This document shows positions 1 to 10,258 of a stretch of DNA of 16,401 nt, piece by piece. Positions within the stretch are counted from its first letter, which is position 1; every line of letters starts with the position of its first letter. The translations under genes were made by a program, and so were the position numbers. Source of the DNA: Tannerella sp. Lineage in GTDB: Bacteria; Bacteroidota; Bacteroidia; Bacteroidales; Tannerellaceae. The stretch is from the NCBI GenBank assembly GCA_031272655.1, contig JAISTJ010000215.1, positions 1 through 16,401 of the forward strand, in the 5' to 3' direction. The notes under the pieces are model-generated. The model ran no database searches, was not told the origin of the DNA, and saw only the letters and a list, made by a program, of their open reading frames with translations.

Positions 1-137
1 GGGTAACTGTTTTCGTGAACCAGTTTGCCCTCATAGACGAGGTCGGATGTATGTTCCATAGTGATACCGTTGGCAAACAGCCACAGTTTCCGCTTGCAAA
101 CAAACCAGTAATTCAAATGTGTGCCTGTAATGTTCAT
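1..137 (-). CDS. cas4: Cas4 CRISPR adaptation nuclease, N-terminal part
   Basis: This is the first 45 codons of Cas4, the RecB-like iron-sulfur exonuclease that helps Cas1-Cas2 select and trim prespacers. The gene leaves the window on the left. The visible protein starts MNITGTHLNYWFVCKRKLWL and continues with FANG, MEHTSDLVYEGK and HENSY. The CKRKLWL segment carries the first cysteine expected for the Fe-S cluster, and the H-T-S-D-L-V-x-E-G-K/H-E stretch is typical of the Cas4 N-terminus. The ATG (137-135) overlaps the TGA of the upstream DUF3307 gene (136-134) in an ATGA arrangement, so the two are probably translationally coupled. The catalytic D/E/K nuclease motifs and the C-terminal cysteines lie outside the window. 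No competing plus-strand gene is credible here. The family call is strong despite the short length. Confidence 0.86.
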   Translation of the reverse strand, partial: MNITGTHLNYWFVCKRKLWLFANGITMEHTSDLVYEGKLVHENSY

Positions 138-856
138 ATTAAAGTGATTAAAACTCCCATCAATATTGCAATTCCGAAACTTAAAAGCGTACCAATCAGA
201 ACATATTCGCTTTTGCGGATAGCCTGAAAGCGAACAATCGCCTTTGCTGCAATGATAAAGCCGATGGCGCTAAATTCGCCTGCCAAAACAAGAGTCAGCG
301 TTATCAACCGTTCTAAATTTCCAATCAATCTGCCTGCCTTGGCAAGTTCGTCGTTCGGCAGGCTCTCTTTGGGCATAAGTGCATACGAATCAAATATATA
401 ACGTATGATGATATTTGATGGTTTCAAACAGACAATATAAGCAGCAGTTATATACAGATACTTGCAGGGAATATTTATGAGCAGGTCAGACAGACTATAA
501 TAATTACTGTAAATCCATGTTACTAAACATATTACAGACAGATGAACTATCTGGTCAAGAGAAAAAATCCACAGTGAATATTTCTGAGCCTGACGAGCAT
601 TTTTAGCGAAACGGCGCTCGGCGATAGATTTCAAGCCGTCAATGGACAGATGAAGCATGGCTAAAACAAGAGCAAAAGGAGCAAAAGACCAGGACAGCGA
701 GGCAATCCAGGACGCCGTAAAGACAATGCCTGCATGGATGTACAGTAACCGCGACCTGAAACCTTTTATCTGTTTGTCGCTGCACCAGTTTTGAGGCTGG
801 AAGCAGAAGTCGGCAAGCAGGTGCGCAATAAATAGACACAGGAGCAGATTATTCAT
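134..856 (-). CDS. DUF3307 multi-pass membrane protein embedded in the cas operon
   Basis: A 240-residue integral membrane protein of the DUF3307 family; its biochemical function is unknown. About six hydrophobic segments are visible, at roughly 1-19, 43-73, 101-117, 132-145, 184-206 and 218-240. Polar residues that look conserved in the family lie in or beside the membrane: H12 and D16 (HLLADF), H41, H69/D73/K76 (HLSIDGLK), D101/Q102/H105 (DQIVH), and the later GRLIGNLER (175-183) and IGFIIAAKAIVRF (198-210) blocks. The spaced His/Asp residues could bind a metal, but that is inference. It starts four bases after the satD stop (861-863), and its own stop overlaps the cas4 start, so all three are probably one transcript. 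SatD and DUF3307 genes are commonly paired in Bacteroidota, from recollection of that family context. Here the pair is inside a CRISPR operon. Confidence 0.8.
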   Translation of the reverse strand: MNNLLLCLFIAHLLADFCFQPQNWCSDKQIKGFRSRLLYIHAGIVFTASWIASLSWSFAPFALVLAMLHLSIDGLKSIAERRFAKNARQAQKYSLWIFSLDQIVHLSVICLVTWIYSNYYSLSDLLINIPCKYLYITAAYIVCLKPSNIIIRYIFDSYALMPKESLPNDELAKAGRLIGNLERLITLTLVLAGEFSAIGFIIAAKAIVRFQAIRKSEYVLIGTLLSFGIAILMGVLITLI

Positions 857-860
857 AGTA

Positions 861-1553
861 TTAAAATTTGCATTGTTCGTAAAAAGTTAAAGCCTTGTCG
901 ATAGCCGCCCAGCCGGCAGAGGTAGAATGTTGATTGACGGCAGACTGGCTCATCTTCAGTGATTTACTGATTTCCGCTTCCGATTTTCGCATCAATTTGT
1001 GATACAGGATATTGCACTGTTTAGCAGTTGCCTTGTTCAATACGAAATCAATCAGCAATAATAGACTGTCAAACAGCAAATTACGCCGTGCGTCTCCCGA
1101 CTCGAAGAATAGCGTGCGCTTGACAATCACTTTGCTCTTACCGGACGTCTTCTGCTCTTCAATTTTTCGCCCGCTTCGGGTTATAGCCTCTCCGTTCCAT
1201 ACGCCTTCAACTGATGTAACAGGGTTCATTTTGCCGACGCCTATTGACAGACGCAGCCCGTAAGCGCTGAAAAGCCGCCGCTGCTTGCTAACGGTAGCAG
1301 GCAAATATGCTTTCACACAGGTTTTTAGCAACAATGCAGCCCGCAACGCATCTTTGGGTCGCTCAAAAAAACACTCAACGGAATCGCCCTTTACGATGCG
1401 CCCGTAGAAGTTCATTTTGCTACGTTTGTTCAGCGTTGCCGCCAGCGTATCTATCGCTGCTTTCAACTTCGCTGTTAACTCTTCCATATCATTGTAACCA
1501 AGCGAAGTAGAAGCCACAATGTCCGCCGAAATACATGCCTTGTTCTTTGTCAT
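861..1553 (-). CDS. SatD-family protein with C-terminal helix-turn-helix
   Basis: A 230-residue protein matching the SatD family. The N-terminal ~145 residues resemble the class III nucleotidyl-cyclase fold: SADIVAST (9-16, with D11), KGDSVECFF (55-63, with D57), RLSIGVG (101-107), and NGEAITRSGRKIEE (120-133, with R129). The two Asp residues sit where class III cyclases bind metal. The usual purine-selecting Lys is not at its normal place, and the catalytic Asn aligns with T125, so activity is uncertain. Residues ~188-220 form a helix-turn-helix (EISKSLKMSQSAVNQH). The ATG at 1553 was chosen because upstream in-frame codons would run through the A/T-rich operator region and match nothing. 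It follows cas7 after a 125-base gap and precedes DUF3307 by four bases. It may be an autoregulator binding the dyads just upstream; that role is inference. Confidence 0.78.
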   Translation of the reverse strand: MTKNKACISADIVASTSLGYNDMEELTAKLKAAIDTLAATLNKRSKMNFYGRIVKGDSVECFFERPKDALRAALLLKTCVKAYLPATVSKQRRLFSAYGLRLSIGVGKMNPVTSVEGVWNGEAITRSGRKIEEQKTSGKSKVIVKRTLFFESGDARRNLLFDSLLLLIDFVLNKATAKQCNILYHKLMRKSEAEISKSLKMSQSAVNQHSTSAGWAAIDKALTFYEQCKF

Positions 1554-1576
1554 ACCGTTCGTTTTATTATTGAAAA

Positions 1577-1658
1577 TATAAGTTAATTCGCTTATAAAAG
1601 CATTATATAAGTTAAATCGCTTATAAATTACAACGCAATATAAGTGAAAAAACTTATA
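1577..1658 (-). promoter_or_regulatory. Triple-dyad operator array upstream of satD
   Basis: Three copies of a 20-bp perfect dyad, TATAAG-N8-CTTATA, lie at 1577-1596, 1606-1625 and 1639-1658. The centre-to-centre distances are 29 and 33 bp, close to three turns of DNA. The first two copies also share most of the N8 core (TTAATTCG and TTAAATCG); the third core is different (TGAAAAAA). Each copy is followed by a further A on the plus strand. The array fills the only long gap inside the cas operon, between the cas7 stop and the satD start. The natural candidate ligand is the helix-turn-helix of SatD, but this is inference. A loose -7-like TATATTTT (1580-1573, minus strand) overlaps the satD-proximal dyad; no convincing -33 element was found. 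Confidence 0.72.
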
Positions 1659-1678
1659 AAATCTAAAATTAAGCAAAA

Positions 1679-2749
1679 TCATTTATTAATGTCCATTTGC
1701 GCTTCATAAGGAAACTTTTTCATCATCTCTATCAGTTTTTCTTCTGCTTTGGCGAGGGCATCGGCGCTTTCGTTGATAGTTACGACGTAACTTGAGCATG
1801 GCAGGGTAATGAACACATCGGCGCCTGCCGTTTCGTCGATGATAGGTTTGGCTTTGGGCTTGCTGACGTCGCCACCGTCGTCGAAGAGTTTGGCACGGAT
1901 GGCGCCTGCAATGGTGTTGGCATTGTCGCTGATAGCGACAGCAAGGGTTTCCATGAGGCTGAACGTGCGCGCCTGATTGGACGTGATGCGCCAGTTCAGC
2001 AAGGCGTGCGCTAAAGCAGGGATGATTTTGTCGCGTTCGGATGATGGCAGCACGAGGCAAGCGCCAAAGACGTTTTTCGCTTCTACCCAGTCTTTGGATT
2101 TCAGTTCCTCGATTTTGTCTTTTGTGAGTTCCGGTTCGTGCTGATTGGTGGAGACGGCGAATAGGGTGCGCAGGTCGATTGCGACGTCATAAACGAAGAG
2201 ACCGCCGGTTCTGGCATTGTCGGGTATCCAGTTGCGGCGCGGCAAAGTGCGGTTGTTGGAATTGAGGAACTCTTCGATTTCTTCTTCCGACAGGAGGCGG
2301 TCGCCCAGACGGACATTTACGGGGTTGTTGTCCGGTTTGTCGCTACGGTCGAAAGTGAGATTTTCCTTATCCACACCTGCAAGCAACGGATGCAGAGGGC
2401 GCATGGCAGAAATTGACAGCGGGCTGCGGCGTTTCAGGGTAATACCTTCGCCTGCCCGCATCCATCCGCCTATCAGTTGGTCAATGAACGCAGGGTCGCA
2501 GGGGGACCAAGGCTCTTTGTTTTCCAACTCTTTCTTCGCAGTGATGTTGTAGTTGAACGTGATAGGCGCCATCTGGACGTTCAGGTCGGAGGTCAGAGTG
2601 TCAAGTATGGAACGTTTGACCTGTTGCCCGCTCGAATATGCAACCAAACGGTTGAACTGCGGGTCGTAATACGTTTTCTGACCGTCCTGGACACAGAAAA
2701 CAGTGTGTTCGGCGTGTTTCAACGCCCTGAGATAAATGTACGGGTTCAT
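1679..2749 (-). CDS. cas7: Cas7-like Cascade backbone subunit
   Basis: A 356-residue protein called Cas7, the subunit that polymerises along the crRNA in type I effector complexes. The call rests partly on position: it lies between the large subunit and the adaptation-side genes, and no other gene here can supply the backbone. In the sequence, the block ITLKRRSPLSISAMRPLHPL (about 103-122) resembles the R-R-S-P-L-S-x-S segment of DevR/Cst2-like Cas7 proteins. The N-terminal YIYLRALKHAEHTVF and the central RTGGLFVYDVAIDLRTLF are consistent with an RRM-type core, and ALAHALLNWRITSNQARTFSL looks like the conserved helix region near the C-terminus. It is somewhat longer than many Cas7 proteins. 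The gene begins 13 bases after the cas8 stop. Sequence similarity is too weak by eye to fix the subfamily. Confidence 0.7.
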   Translation of the reverse strand: MNPYIYLRALKHAEHTVFCVQDGQKTYYDPQFNRLVAYSSGQQVKRSILDTLTSDLNVQMAPITFNYNITAKKELENKEPWSPCDPAFIDQLIGGWMRAGEGITLKRRSPLSISAMRPLHPLLAGVDKENLTFDRSDKPDNNPVNVRLGDRLLSEEEIEEFLNSNNRTLPRRNWIPDNARTGGLFVYDVAIDLRTLFAVSTNQHEPELTKDKIEELKSKDWVEAKNVFGACLVLPSSERDKIIPALAHALLNWRITSNQARTFSLMETLAVAISDNANTIAGAIRAKLFDDGGDVSKPKAKPIIDETAGADVFITLPCSSYVVTINESADALAKAEEKLIEMMKKFPYEAQMDINK

Positions 2750-7519: not shown

Positions 7520-7551
7520 GGGATATTTGTTCGACTATGTTGAAGTCGGAG
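7520..7551. repeat. 32-bp direct repeat, copy 1 (CRISPR-like pair)
   Basis: This 32-bp block is identical to 7586-7617; the flanking bases differ on both sides. The two copies are separated by 34 unrelated bases (7552-7585), which matches a repeat-spacer-repeat unit. Each copy has an internal stem: TTCGACT (7530-7536), loop ATGTTGA, AGTCGGA (7544-7550), with one G-U pair. The ends do not show the GAAAC-type 3' terminus common in type I-B repeats in either orientation. It may be a relic of a CRISPR array or some other dyad repeat. Confidence 0.6.
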
Positions 7552-7553
7552 TA

Positions 7554-7769
7554 TTAAGTTTCTGCCACAAACTTCGTCACTGTGCGGGATATTTGTTCGA
7601 CTATGTTGAAGTCGGAGCCGACAATATGTAGCCAATCTGAAACAGAATCCCGCGCAATAATCGCCCTGTAAACAAAAGCGCTCAGTTCGTACTGGTAACT
7701 CAACGGCAGCAATGAGGCATTTTTGGAGTTGAAAGCAGTAGCAACTTTCAACATAAGTTTGAAACGCAT
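7554..7769 (-). pseudogene. Truncated 5' fragment of a second cas6-like gene
   Basis: A 71-codon frame whose first ~50 residues look like a Cas6 N-terminus: MRFKLMLKVA, then LPLSYQYELSAFVYRAI (21-37) and DSVSDWLHI (41-49). From residue 51/52 onward the frame reads through the 32-bp repeat (SDFNIVEQIS) and then into the 34-base interval, where it stops. The rest of Cas6, including the glycine-rich C-terminal loop, is missing. The subgroup differs from the complete cas6 downstream, so this looks like a leftover of another CRISPR-Cas locus, not a recent duplicate. No good promoter was seen upstream. Alternatively it is an unrelated small protein; the Cas6 resemblance is by eye and covers only about 50 residues. 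Confidence 0.5.
7586..7617. repeat. 32-bp direct repeat, copy 2 (CRISPR-like pair)
   Basis: Exact second copy of the 7520-7551 block. Its right end (7617) coincides with the point where the cas6-like fragment on the minus strand stops resembling Cas6, so the repeat sits at the breakpoint of that gene. No third copy was found on either side, up to cas6 on the left and the antiporter gene on the right. Confidence 0.6.
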
Positions 7770-7987: not shown

Positions 7988-10258
7988 ATGGGACACTTGC
8001 CTCCACTTATTCACGACCTTGCGCTGATTCTTATCACTGCGGGCGCGGTTACTATACTTTTTAAATGGCTTAAACAGCCGGTCGTACTGGGTTATATTGT
8101 TGCCGGCTTCCTTGCCGGTCCTAATTTCGTGTTCTTCCCTTCGGTCGGCGATGCAGTCAATATAAGCATTTGGGCTGATATAGGCGTAATTTTTCTGCTA
8201 TTTGCTCTTGGACTGGAATTTAGTTTTAAAAAACTTATTGCAGTGGGGGGATCGGCTTCAATAGCTACGATTATAAGTATGGGTTCGATGATGGCAATTG
8301 GTTATATCGTTGGAAAATTGTTTGGATGGTCATCTATTAACAGTATTTTTCTCGGATGCATGATTTCGATGTCGTCAACTACCATTATTATTAAGACATT
8401 GACAGACATGGGGTTACAAAAGCAGAAATTTGCCGGCATAGTCTTTGCGATGCTGATAGTAGAAGACCTTGTAGCTATTTTGATGATGGTATTACTTTCT
8501 ACCCTTGCCGTCAGCAAGCAGTTTGAAGGCGCTGACTTAGTACAGAACATCATTGTTCTTGTGTTTTTCCTATTGATATGGTTTGTTGGCGGTATATATC
8601 TGATACCAAGCCTGTTGAAGCGTTTTCAGAAGTATCTAAACAATGAAACGCTATTAGTAATAGTCATTGGCTTATGTCTCGGAATGGTGCTTTTTGCTTC
8701 ATCTGCAGGCTTTTCGGCTGCTCTGGGAGCGTTTGTGATGGGTTCGATTTTGGCTGAAACTGTTGAAATGAAGCGTATCGAGCATTTGGTTGAACCGTTG
8801 AAAAACCTATTTGGGGCTGTGTTTTTTGTCTCCGTCGGAATGATGATAGACCCTTCAATAATTGCGGAACATATTGGTACTATCCTGACTATCAGCCTGA
8901 CGGTCATTGTTTGTATGATTTTTTTCTCTACATTGGGAGTATCTGTATCCGGTCAGAGTCTCAAAGTGGCTATTCAAGCCGGTTTTTGCCTGTCTCAGAT
9001 TGGCGAATTTTCTTTTATCATTGCTACTCTGGGACTTAGCTTGGGAGTGATAGATAAATTTCTCTATCCGGTAATTGTAGCCGTCTCAACGTTAACTACT
9101 TTCTGCACTCCATATTTCATCAAAGCCTCGCCGTCGGTTTACACTTTCCTTGAGAAAAAAATACCTTCCAAATGGGATAAACTGCTGAAAGGATATGCTG
9201 CTTCGGGGTATGCCACGACAGTCAACCGACGTTCGGAATGGAATATCCTTTTAAAGAACGTGTTAAACATTGTTGTGATATACCTGTTAATTTCAATGTC
9301 AATCATTTTCCTTTCAAGGCAGTTCTTAAATCCTTGGATAACGGAACGTTTACCGTCTATTTGGGGGCATATAATAATAGCAGTTGTAACCATTCTCGCC
9401 TTAGCTCCTTTTATGAGGGCTATTGTTGTGCGCAAAAGCAATTCCAAAGAAGTCAAAAAACTTTGGGCAGACAACAATTTGAACCGTACCGGCCTAATTT
9501 TGCTGACAATTGCACGGTATTTAATATGTATTGGATTAGTTCTTGCTGTACTGATGCCGCTTTTCCCTAATGCCACCGCCATACTGTGCCTTATTTCAAT
9601 GATAGTTGTTGCAGCTGTAACATGGTCGCAAGTAGTAAAGAAGCAGTCGAGACGAATGGAACGTGTTTTCATGGAAAACCTCAACCGGAAAGAGTTGGAA
9701 GAAGAACGAAAAACAACATTAGGTAAAAAGACGGTTAAAGATTTGTTAGACAAGGATGTACATGTTGAAGAAATAACCGTTTCGCCAATATCTCCAAGCG
9801 CAGGCAAAACACTCAAAGAACTAAATTTCAAGCAGGTAGCAGGAGTTAATGTCGTTTCTATCATTCGTGGTTCTAAAAAGATAAATATACCGGACGGAAA
9901 TGTACGTCTTTATCCTTACGACAAATTAGTTGTAGTAGGTTCTGATGAGGAGATACAGAAGTGTCTAAACAGAATAGCTCAATATCAGGATAATCCTGAA
10001 GAGGAAGACGAGGCAATCCATCACATAGCGCTATCTAACTATGTTGTTGAAGCAGATTCGCCTTTGTTGGGCAAGACAGTTCGCGAACTTAATACCCGCG
10101 AGCGAGCCGAGTGTATGATAATAGGTATTGACCGTAACGGACATACTATGAGCAACTTCACAGCCGACTTGATGCTTGAAAAAGGCGATGTATTATGGCT
10201 TGCAGGCGAAAAAGATGATGTGGATGGTTTCGGGGAGAAATATATAGAAAACGCTTAA
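7988..10258 (+). CDS. Kef/CPA2-type cation:proton antiporter with two TrkA-C domains
   Basis: A 756-residue inner-membrane monovalent cation:proton antiporter. Residues ~1-380 form the Na+/H+ exchanger membrane domain, with many hydrophobic helices and typical CPA2 motifs (LGYIVAGFLAGPN near 35-47, FALGLEFSFKKL near 72-83, SMSSTTIIIKTL, VEDLVAILMMVLL, SQIGEFSFIIATLGLSLG). Four further hydrophobic segments at roughly 430-560 are followed by a charged linker and two tandem RCK_C/TrkA-C modules (about 590-660 and 675-750). Each module ends in a conserved KLVVVGS or VLWLAGE strand. The NAD-binding RCK_N domain usual in KefB/KefC is absent. The ATG at 7988 is the first in the leader. It is 13 bases upstream of sufC and probably heads that transcript. 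The transported ion (K+ or Na+) cannot be told from sequence. Confidence 0.88.
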   Translation: MGHLPPLIHDLALILITAGAVTILFKWLKQPVVLGYIVAGFLAGPNFVFFPSVGDAVNISIWADIGVIFLLFALGLEFSFKKLIAVGGSASIATIISMGSMMAIGYIVGKLFGWSSINSIFLGCMISMSSTTIIIKTLTDMGLQKQKFAGIVFAMLIVEDLVAILMMVLLSTLAVSKQFEGADLVQNIIVLVFFLLIWFVGGIYLIPSLLKRFQKYLNNETLLVIVIGLCLGMVLFASSAGFSAALGAFVMGSILAETVEMKRIEHLVEPLKNLFGAVFFVSVGMMIDPSIIAEHIGTILTISLTVIVCMIFFSTLGVSVSGQSLKVAIQAGFCLSQIGEFSFIIATLGLSLGVIDKFLYPVIVAVSTLTTFCTPYFIKASPSVYTFLEKKIPSKWDKLLKGYAASGYATTVNRRSEWNILLKNVLNIVVIYLLISMSIIFLSRQFLNPWITERLPSIWGHIIIAVVTILALAPFMRAIVVRKSNSKEVKKLWADNNLNRTGLILLTIARYLICIGLVLAVLMPLFPNATAILCLISMIVVAAVTWSQVVKKQSRRMERVFMENLNRKELEEERKTTLGKKTVKDLLDKDVHVEEITVSPISPSAGKTLKELNFKQVAGVNVVSIIRGSKKINIPDGNVRLYPYDKLVVVGSDEEIQKCLNRIAQYQDNPEEEDEAIHHIALSNYVVEADSPLLGKTVRELNTRERAECMIIGIDRNGHTMSNFTADLMLEKGDVLWLAGEKDDVDGFGEKYIENA

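Follow-up and report, generated by a model that had tools for sequence, protein, structure and literature searches.

The SatD-DUF3307 gene pair, found here inside a type I-B cas operon, is most simply read as an autonomous, autoregulated two-gene cassette that inserted codirectionally between cas7 and cas4, as related cassettes have done in other operons; we give this reading a probability of roughly two in three. The window, meaning the whole 16,401-nt stretch analysed, is the start of contig JAISTJ010000215.1 (C221) of a metagenome-assembled genome of Tannerella sp. (GCA_031272655.1; 2.18 Mb, 225 contigs, 72.5% complete). According to gene calls and Pfam, NCBIfam and PADLOC profiles, its minus strand carries, in order, cas6-cas5-cas3-cas8b-cas7, a SatD-like gene, a DUF3307 gene and the start of cas4. 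A previous reading made from the sequence alone (the sequence-only reading) had recognised the I-B type of the operon, the shared orientation from cas6 to cas4, the 4-nt spacing of the pair and the ATGA overlap between the DUF3307 stop and the cas4 start, all of which the profiles and gene calls bear out. It had further proposed that SatD and DUF3307 have become part of this CRISPR system. Four observations lead elsewhere: the nearly constant pairing of the two genes, the tandem palindromes upstream of them, their absence from related cas loci and their presence inside other operons. Since related units sit within operons of quite other kinds in other loci, the pair is probably not a CRISPR component.

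Absence of the pair from related cas loci

Of the 395 phylum genomes sampled, 23 have Cas8b of the window type, and the cas stretches of 20 of the 22 other genomes were fetched, two partial matches being left out; single-sequence and profile searches found neither SatD nor DUF3307 in any of the 20. A second set, based on Cas7b, came from 14 of 393 genomes of the order and comprised, after fragments in two genomes were dropped, 11 other full-length loci, with cas4 within the fetched flank (up to 1.5 kb) in eight; the same searches found the pair in none of the 11. Two genomes (G298 and G454) are common to both sets, so that 29 distinct other genomes with this cas7/cas8b type were covered, and the pair is in the fetched cas stretch of none of them. 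Many of these relatives, among them L110 (cas7 81% identical, 10-nt gap, cas1 and cas2 confirmed by Pfam) and L113, have cas4-cas1-cas2 immediately behind cas7.

Searches in the opposite direction covered the surroundings of the pair. Queried with the cas proteins of the window itself, the surroundings of the best 80 of 137 SatD relatives showed no cas genes, and among 131 other pair loci (L002-L084 and L139-L186) query sets from seven relatives detected no cas7, cas4, cas1 or cas2 of this type; the searches covered the window's CRISPR type, and the four matches that the second one did give came from non-cas open reading frames (ORFs) of L113. SatD and Cas8b occur together in 4 of the 395 phylum genomes and are adjacent in the window's genome only. 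The order cas7-satD-DUF3307-cas4, for whose conservation the sequence-only reading had proposed a search, thus occurs a single time: the cassette landed in a cas operon once among the sampled genomes. This, with the unrelated neighbours that the pair has in other loci, is the outcome that the sequence-only reading had itself named as refuting its proposal. Within the genus, this SatD and this Cas8b are each present in 1 of 37 genomes, both times the window's own, which suggests that the whole locus was acquired recently in the genus, many of whose genomes are incomplete.

A CRISPR-specific accessory module, in which SatD and DUF3307 would be dedicated to this I-B system and would control acquisition or provide a membrane-level abortive output, would account for the tight codirectional embedding and for the overlap with cas4. 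The counts given above already contradict it, as does the residence of the pair inside housekeeping operons described below, and we regard it as very improbable. Even less credence is due to an assembly artefact joining two contigs, to which a fragmented and incomplete metagenome-assembled genome might be thought prone: there are two separate seamless junctions, one of them an exact start/stop overlap, and a 97% identical SatD lies on another metagenome contig (P0001; genomic context unseen).

Four relatives (L114, L120, L127 and L128) carry other ORFs between cas7 and cas4; those of L120 and L127 are small, and their starts resemble, by eye, a transposase or a GIY-YIG protein. Given these small ORFs, the interval seems tolerant of insertions.

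Near-constant pairing and diverse host operons

SatD matches were found in 98 and DUF3307 matches in 113 of the 395 phylum genomes, so that the two families are present in about a quarter of them. Across 123 SatD loci, DUF3307 lies directly behind SatD in 120, with an ORF gap of at most 15 nt in 111 of these; the exceptions are L024 (contig end), L153 (without DUF3307) and L150 (overlapping calls). Starting from DUF3307 instead, a comparison of lists left 26 places without a nearby SatD match; 17 of these were fetched, together with three places that have a known partner, and nine weak or partial ones were left. Under a wider profile, 12 of the 17, unpartnered under the first SatD profile, have a divergent SatD-like gene nearby, and five do not, namely L232, L233 and L234 from one genus, L235 and the fragment L246.

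The gene downstream of the 120 pairs is codirectional in 67 cases (within 60 nt in 32 of them, by a crude start rule) and convergent in 41; nine pairs have none within 400 nt and three are at contig edges. The operons involved were identified from the best 80 of the 137 SatD relatives that a scan of species genomes gave, the neighbourhoods being defined by ORF calls and clustering with a Pfam check of ten representatives. The pair precedes tilS in 19 loci, all in Flavobacteriaceae, with a chorismate-binding enzyme upstream in 18 and the other cut at the contig end. It precedes hsdM in 12 loci (hsdS upstream in seven, hsdR in one), V-ATPase subunit A in eight (L036, L032, L041, L047, L052, L055, L059 and L084; DUF2764 called upstream in six, and one more ORF between in L036) and a Na+/H+ antiporter in four. 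Single loci have it inside the complex I operon, in the order nuoL-pair-nuoM-nuoN (L065:7935-12921), and before queC (L074). The other loci among these 80, like the majority of 40 more, have different neighbours or are stand-alone. In a tree of 83 SatD proteins the loci with a restriction context fall into two or more separate places; the window protein sits on a long branch (0.97), a placement that is itself unsure, its nearest relative being that of L005 at 50% identity. In three of the 12 hsdM loci, L008, L010 and L014, there is just an hsdM-like piece (73-169 aa) behind the pair, as if a restriction operon had decayed while the pair remained.

The V-ATPase operon allows loci with and without the pair to be compared. 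Of 139 genomes of the order, 49 have DUF2764, and in all 30 V-ATPase loci examined it runs directly into atpA without the pair (by ORF calls, the two genes are -73 to 85 nt apart); the pair therefore behaves like an inserted cassette. One of these 30 pair-free loci, L252, shares 79% identity in DUF2764 with L036, which has the pair. The pattern fits a cassette that would enter existing operons without breaking them.

Tandem palindromes and a candidate internal promoter

The sequence-only reading placed the pair correctly between cas7 and cas4 and made no mention of the 125-nt gap between cas7 and satD (SatD start at 1553), which contains three tandem palindromes. Such palindromes before SatD genes are new here; no mention of them, or of operon embedding, was met in the SatD literature consulted, in which no search was aimed at either. 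Of 130 loci, 97 have at least two same-arm dyads in the 200 bp before SatD; such arrays turned up in 55 of 650 dinucleotide shuffles and in none of 125 control stretches taken 800-1000 bp upstream. The arms vary by locus (TTATAAG, TTATTAG, TATCGG, AAATCAA, TTTAGCC). In a second test, which allowed periods of 28-33 bp and which 72 loci passed, 103 of the 121 intervals measure 29 bp and 16 measure 28 bp. Among 49 non-redundant loci, similarity of the dyads follows similarity of the SatD helix-turn-helix (HTH) when the N-terminal domain is held constant (partial r 0.31, a value reached in 2 of 1000 permutations), and the reverse test, of dyads against the N-terminal domain with the HTH held constant, gives -0.07.

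The three dyads of the window, spaced 29 and 33 bp apart, are all in the cas7-satD gap; the exact dyad occurs three times in the 2.18-Mb assembly, always in this gap, with two one-mismatch sites elsewhere. The motif TAnnTTTG, which we take to be the Bacteroidota -7 box, lies within 75 nt of the SatD start in 76 of 126 loci, compared with 155 of 2520 mononucleotide shuffles, and the window has the candidate TATATTTT. Because the three dyads and the candidate box lie there, the cassette comes with a likely control region of its own, placed in the cas7-satD gap.

The cas operon and the pair are likely co-transcribed. In the mechanism that we propose, SatD would bind the dyads and repress an internal promoter that would read into cas4 and presumably also cas1-cas2, so that the adaptation genes would come under SatD's signal. 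The control of spacer acquisition suggested by the sequence-only reading survives to this extent, as a possible effect of a regulator with its own operator-like sites and a probable promoter before cas4, and not as the task of a CRISPR-dedicated part. DUF3307 may be embedded in the membrane as an effector, perhaps a metal-dependent one, that does harm upon loss of SatD or a change of its signal, in which case the cassette could double as an addiction-like element for its host operon.

Several points weigh against the cassette reading. No tandem array was detected in 33 of the 130 loci, the stricter second test chained just two of the window's three dyads, and TATATTTT has one mismatch to the motif. 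The link between dyads and SatD is correlational, with shared ancestry not fully removed; SatD binding and the internal promoter are read from sequence, and insertion from the comparison of loci. The 41 pairs with a convergent downstream gene indicate that many copies are plain stand-alone units, and the occurrence of DUF3307 without SatD in three genes of one genus and in L235 weakens the case for an effector role.

That the pair is a neutral passenger, present in the operon by happenstance and without effect on cas gene expression, falls somewhat short of an even bet. It would suit the single occurrence and the other ORFs seen in the same interval of four relatives; a 125-nt gap with three operator-like dyads, and the 4-nt and ATGA spacing that leads into cas4, would be harder to explain by it. 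The most far-reaching form of the cassette hypothesis is a mobile "operon stowaway", that is, an addiction-like membrane-effector cassette with operator arrays of 29-bp period, which would insert into V-ATPase, complex I, restriction and CRISPR operons, take over downstream transcription and make the host dependent on the operon, here governing the spacer-acquisition genes; taken as a whole, we think this unlikely.

The SatD-like protein and its DUF3307 partner

The name SatD comes from streptococcal secretion and acid tolerance genes. The sequence-only reading had called the window protein a member of this family (PF16264), a call that holds through relatives and not by a direct profile match. 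No PF16264 match to the protein was reported at E <= 10, HMMER filters dropping weak matches, and none was found in a search of the window's genome, the family having matched no control genome either. Its identity follows from the PF16264 matches of its relatives: the family is borne by 10 of its 55 homologues and matched at E <= 0.1 by 23 of 60 aligned SatD-type members. Like the PF16264-matching relatives, the window protein has a cyclase-like domain followed by an HTH, and its gene precedes DUF3307.

Searched against the PDB, the SatD profile gave weak matches to class III nucleotide cyclases (E 0.0018-0.0046) and weaker ones to LuxR-type HTH domains (E 0.013 and up). D11 and D57, which we take to be the metal-binding positions expected in class III cyclases, are invariant in 60 of 60 SatD-type proteins. 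The position of the catalytic Asn, presumed from the same mapping, has Thr in the window protein and Tyr in 29 of the 60, and Arg129 is kept in 46. With the metal Asp positions kept and the expected catalytic Asn replaced, the N-terminal domain is probably a degenerate, class III cyclase-like domain that binds a ligand without catalysis, and it probably serves as a nucleotide- or metal-binding sensor.

The DUF3307 product is well above the PF11750 cut-off (81.5 bits against 23), and its AlphaFold2 model is all-helical with a mean pLDDT of 93.4. Conserved positions in the N-terminal half are H12, D16, Q20, H41, H69, D73, D101, Q102 and H105, and in the C-terminal half G175, I178, G179, E182, R183, G199, K205, E217, G222 and S226 are invariant in a 68-row alignment. 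These residues would suit the core of an enzyme or channel better than an anchor, in a protein with a predicted membrane location. No clear relative was found in the PDB, nor any PADLOC match at E <= 0.1.

A cyclase-like fold beside a predicted membrane protein recalls Pycsar, in which PycC acts with an effector, and a cyclic nucleotide made by SatD might open or activate DUF3307. The invariant D11 and D57 and a weak match of SatD to PADLOC PycC (E 5.7e-6) fit this idea. We nonetheless consider it improbable, as the pair differs from Pycsar in the replaced catalytic Asn (by this presumed mapping), the incompletely kept Arg, the missing PADLOC effector match and the possession of an HTH, which with the dyads points to regulation.

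The pair might also be a toxin-antitoxin-like guard, with DUF3307 as membrane toxin and SatD as repressor or antitoxin, on whose host operon cells would come to depend. Its near-constant pairing and predicted autoregulation-type dyads agree with this, as does its place as the main cargo of a small plasmid. DUF3307 is present on 17 of 72,556 plasmid records, and the plasmid in question is one of them, the 3,770-bp L186 (NC_019077.1); beside DUF3307 and the SatD-like gene, recognised by profile (E 7e-9), its annotation has a small hypothetical protein, rop and mobA. The pair of L186 had no near match among the complete E. coli genomes examined; further plasmid records with DUF3307 that were examined are from Vibrio, Salinivibrio, Sphingomonas, Segatella, Fusobacterium and the archaeon Haloplanus. 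In one study, satD of Streptococcus pyogenes is reported to be essential in transposon screens yet present in just 178 of 249 genomes (PMC11323703). A gene both essential and absent from some lineages would be expected of an antitoxin or a repressor of a harmful partner, which for this satD may or may not be a DUF3307 neighbour. The four full-length DUF3307 proteins without SatD are altered at residues otherwise invariant in the 68: those of L232-L234 all have G175E, one also S226N, and that of L235 has I178V together with K205T and E217K in a gapped stretch of the alignment. These four represent two lineages at most, SatD with its 230 aa is what we take to be large for an antitoxin, and the toxicity of DUF3307 is itself hypothetical; we hold this guard to be unlikely, attractive as an addiction-like reading may be.

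Relation to known systems

CRISPR-linked addiction and control elements, CreTA, CreR and CrePA, have been described (PMC9458426, PMC12737573) and are likewise small elements in or beside cas loci that control or guard them; they rely on CRISPR RNA-like RNAs and Cas proteins, whereas the pair encodes two proteins, has DNA sites of its own and exists without CRISPR in other loci. We found no paper naming both SatD and DUF3307.

Controller (C) proteins of restriction-modification systems and WYL-type defence regulators are autoregulators with operators at the start of defence operons. SatD, as a predicted autoregulator with operators beside defence genes, resembles them, and differs in its fold, in its membrane-protein partner and in its occurrence in V-ATPase, nuo and tilS operons as well. 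The cassette would offer one route by which CRISPR adaptation genes come under an unrelated cellular signal, and the candidate operator code, together with operons that have and lack the cassette, makes both its regulation and its effect directly testable.

The cas locus of the window

The features of the locus are collected in Table 1. The I-B set of Cas8b, Cas7, Cas5, Cas6 and Cas3 is complete according to the PADLOC I-B models; cas1, cas2 and the array are out of view because the contig begins at base 1, inside cas4.

Table 1. Genes and operator-like sites of the cas locus, from cas6 to the contig start
Feature	Position	Strand	Evidence or remark
cas6	7439-6777	-	TIGR01877 E 1.3e-22; PADLOC Cas6b
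cas5	6793-6200	-	PADLOC PDLC02093 E 6.4e-87 (Cas5b)
cas3	6174-4048	-	TIGR01587 E 1.8e-63; PADLOC PDLC02079 1053 bits (Cas3b)
cas8b	4043-2763	-	PADLOC PDLC01511 E 1.6e-169
cas7 (Cas7b)	2749-1679	-	PADLOC PDLC01493 E 1.3e-179
Distal operator-like dyad	1638-1659	-	33 bp from middle dyad
Middle operator-like dyad	1605-1626	-	29 bp from proximal dyad
Proximal operator-like dyad	1576-1597	-	overlaps -7-like TATATTTT at 1580-1573
SatD-like regulator, 230 aa	1553-861	-	class III cyclase-like N-terminal domain and C-terminal HTH; 55 homologues at E <= 1e-3
DUF3307 protein, predicted membrane protein, 240 aa	856-134	-	PF11750 E 7e-23
cas4, N-terminal 45 aa only	137-1	-	PF01930 E 5.4e-14; start matches cas4 of L110 and L113

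The I-B repeat pattern of the relatives' type, searched for as one pattern, was not found in the assembly, whose 72.5% completeness makes this no proof of absence. Upstream of cas6, at 7520-7551 and 7586-7617, there are two identical 32-nt repeats, 66 bp apart with a 34-nt spacer, each of which can fold a CGACT/AGTCG hairpin; with up to 3 mismatches allowed, these are the sole copies of the repeat in the assembly, and it differs from the I-B repeats of relatives.

Adjoining cas6, a divergent gene at 7988-10258 encodes an antiporter of the Na_H_Exchanger family. In L042, L045, L057 and L064, proteins of one cluster, whose L042 member belongs to the same Pfam family, are encoded directly downstream of the pair; the antiporter beside the window's cas6 and those behind the pair elsewhere may be a coincidence of chance.

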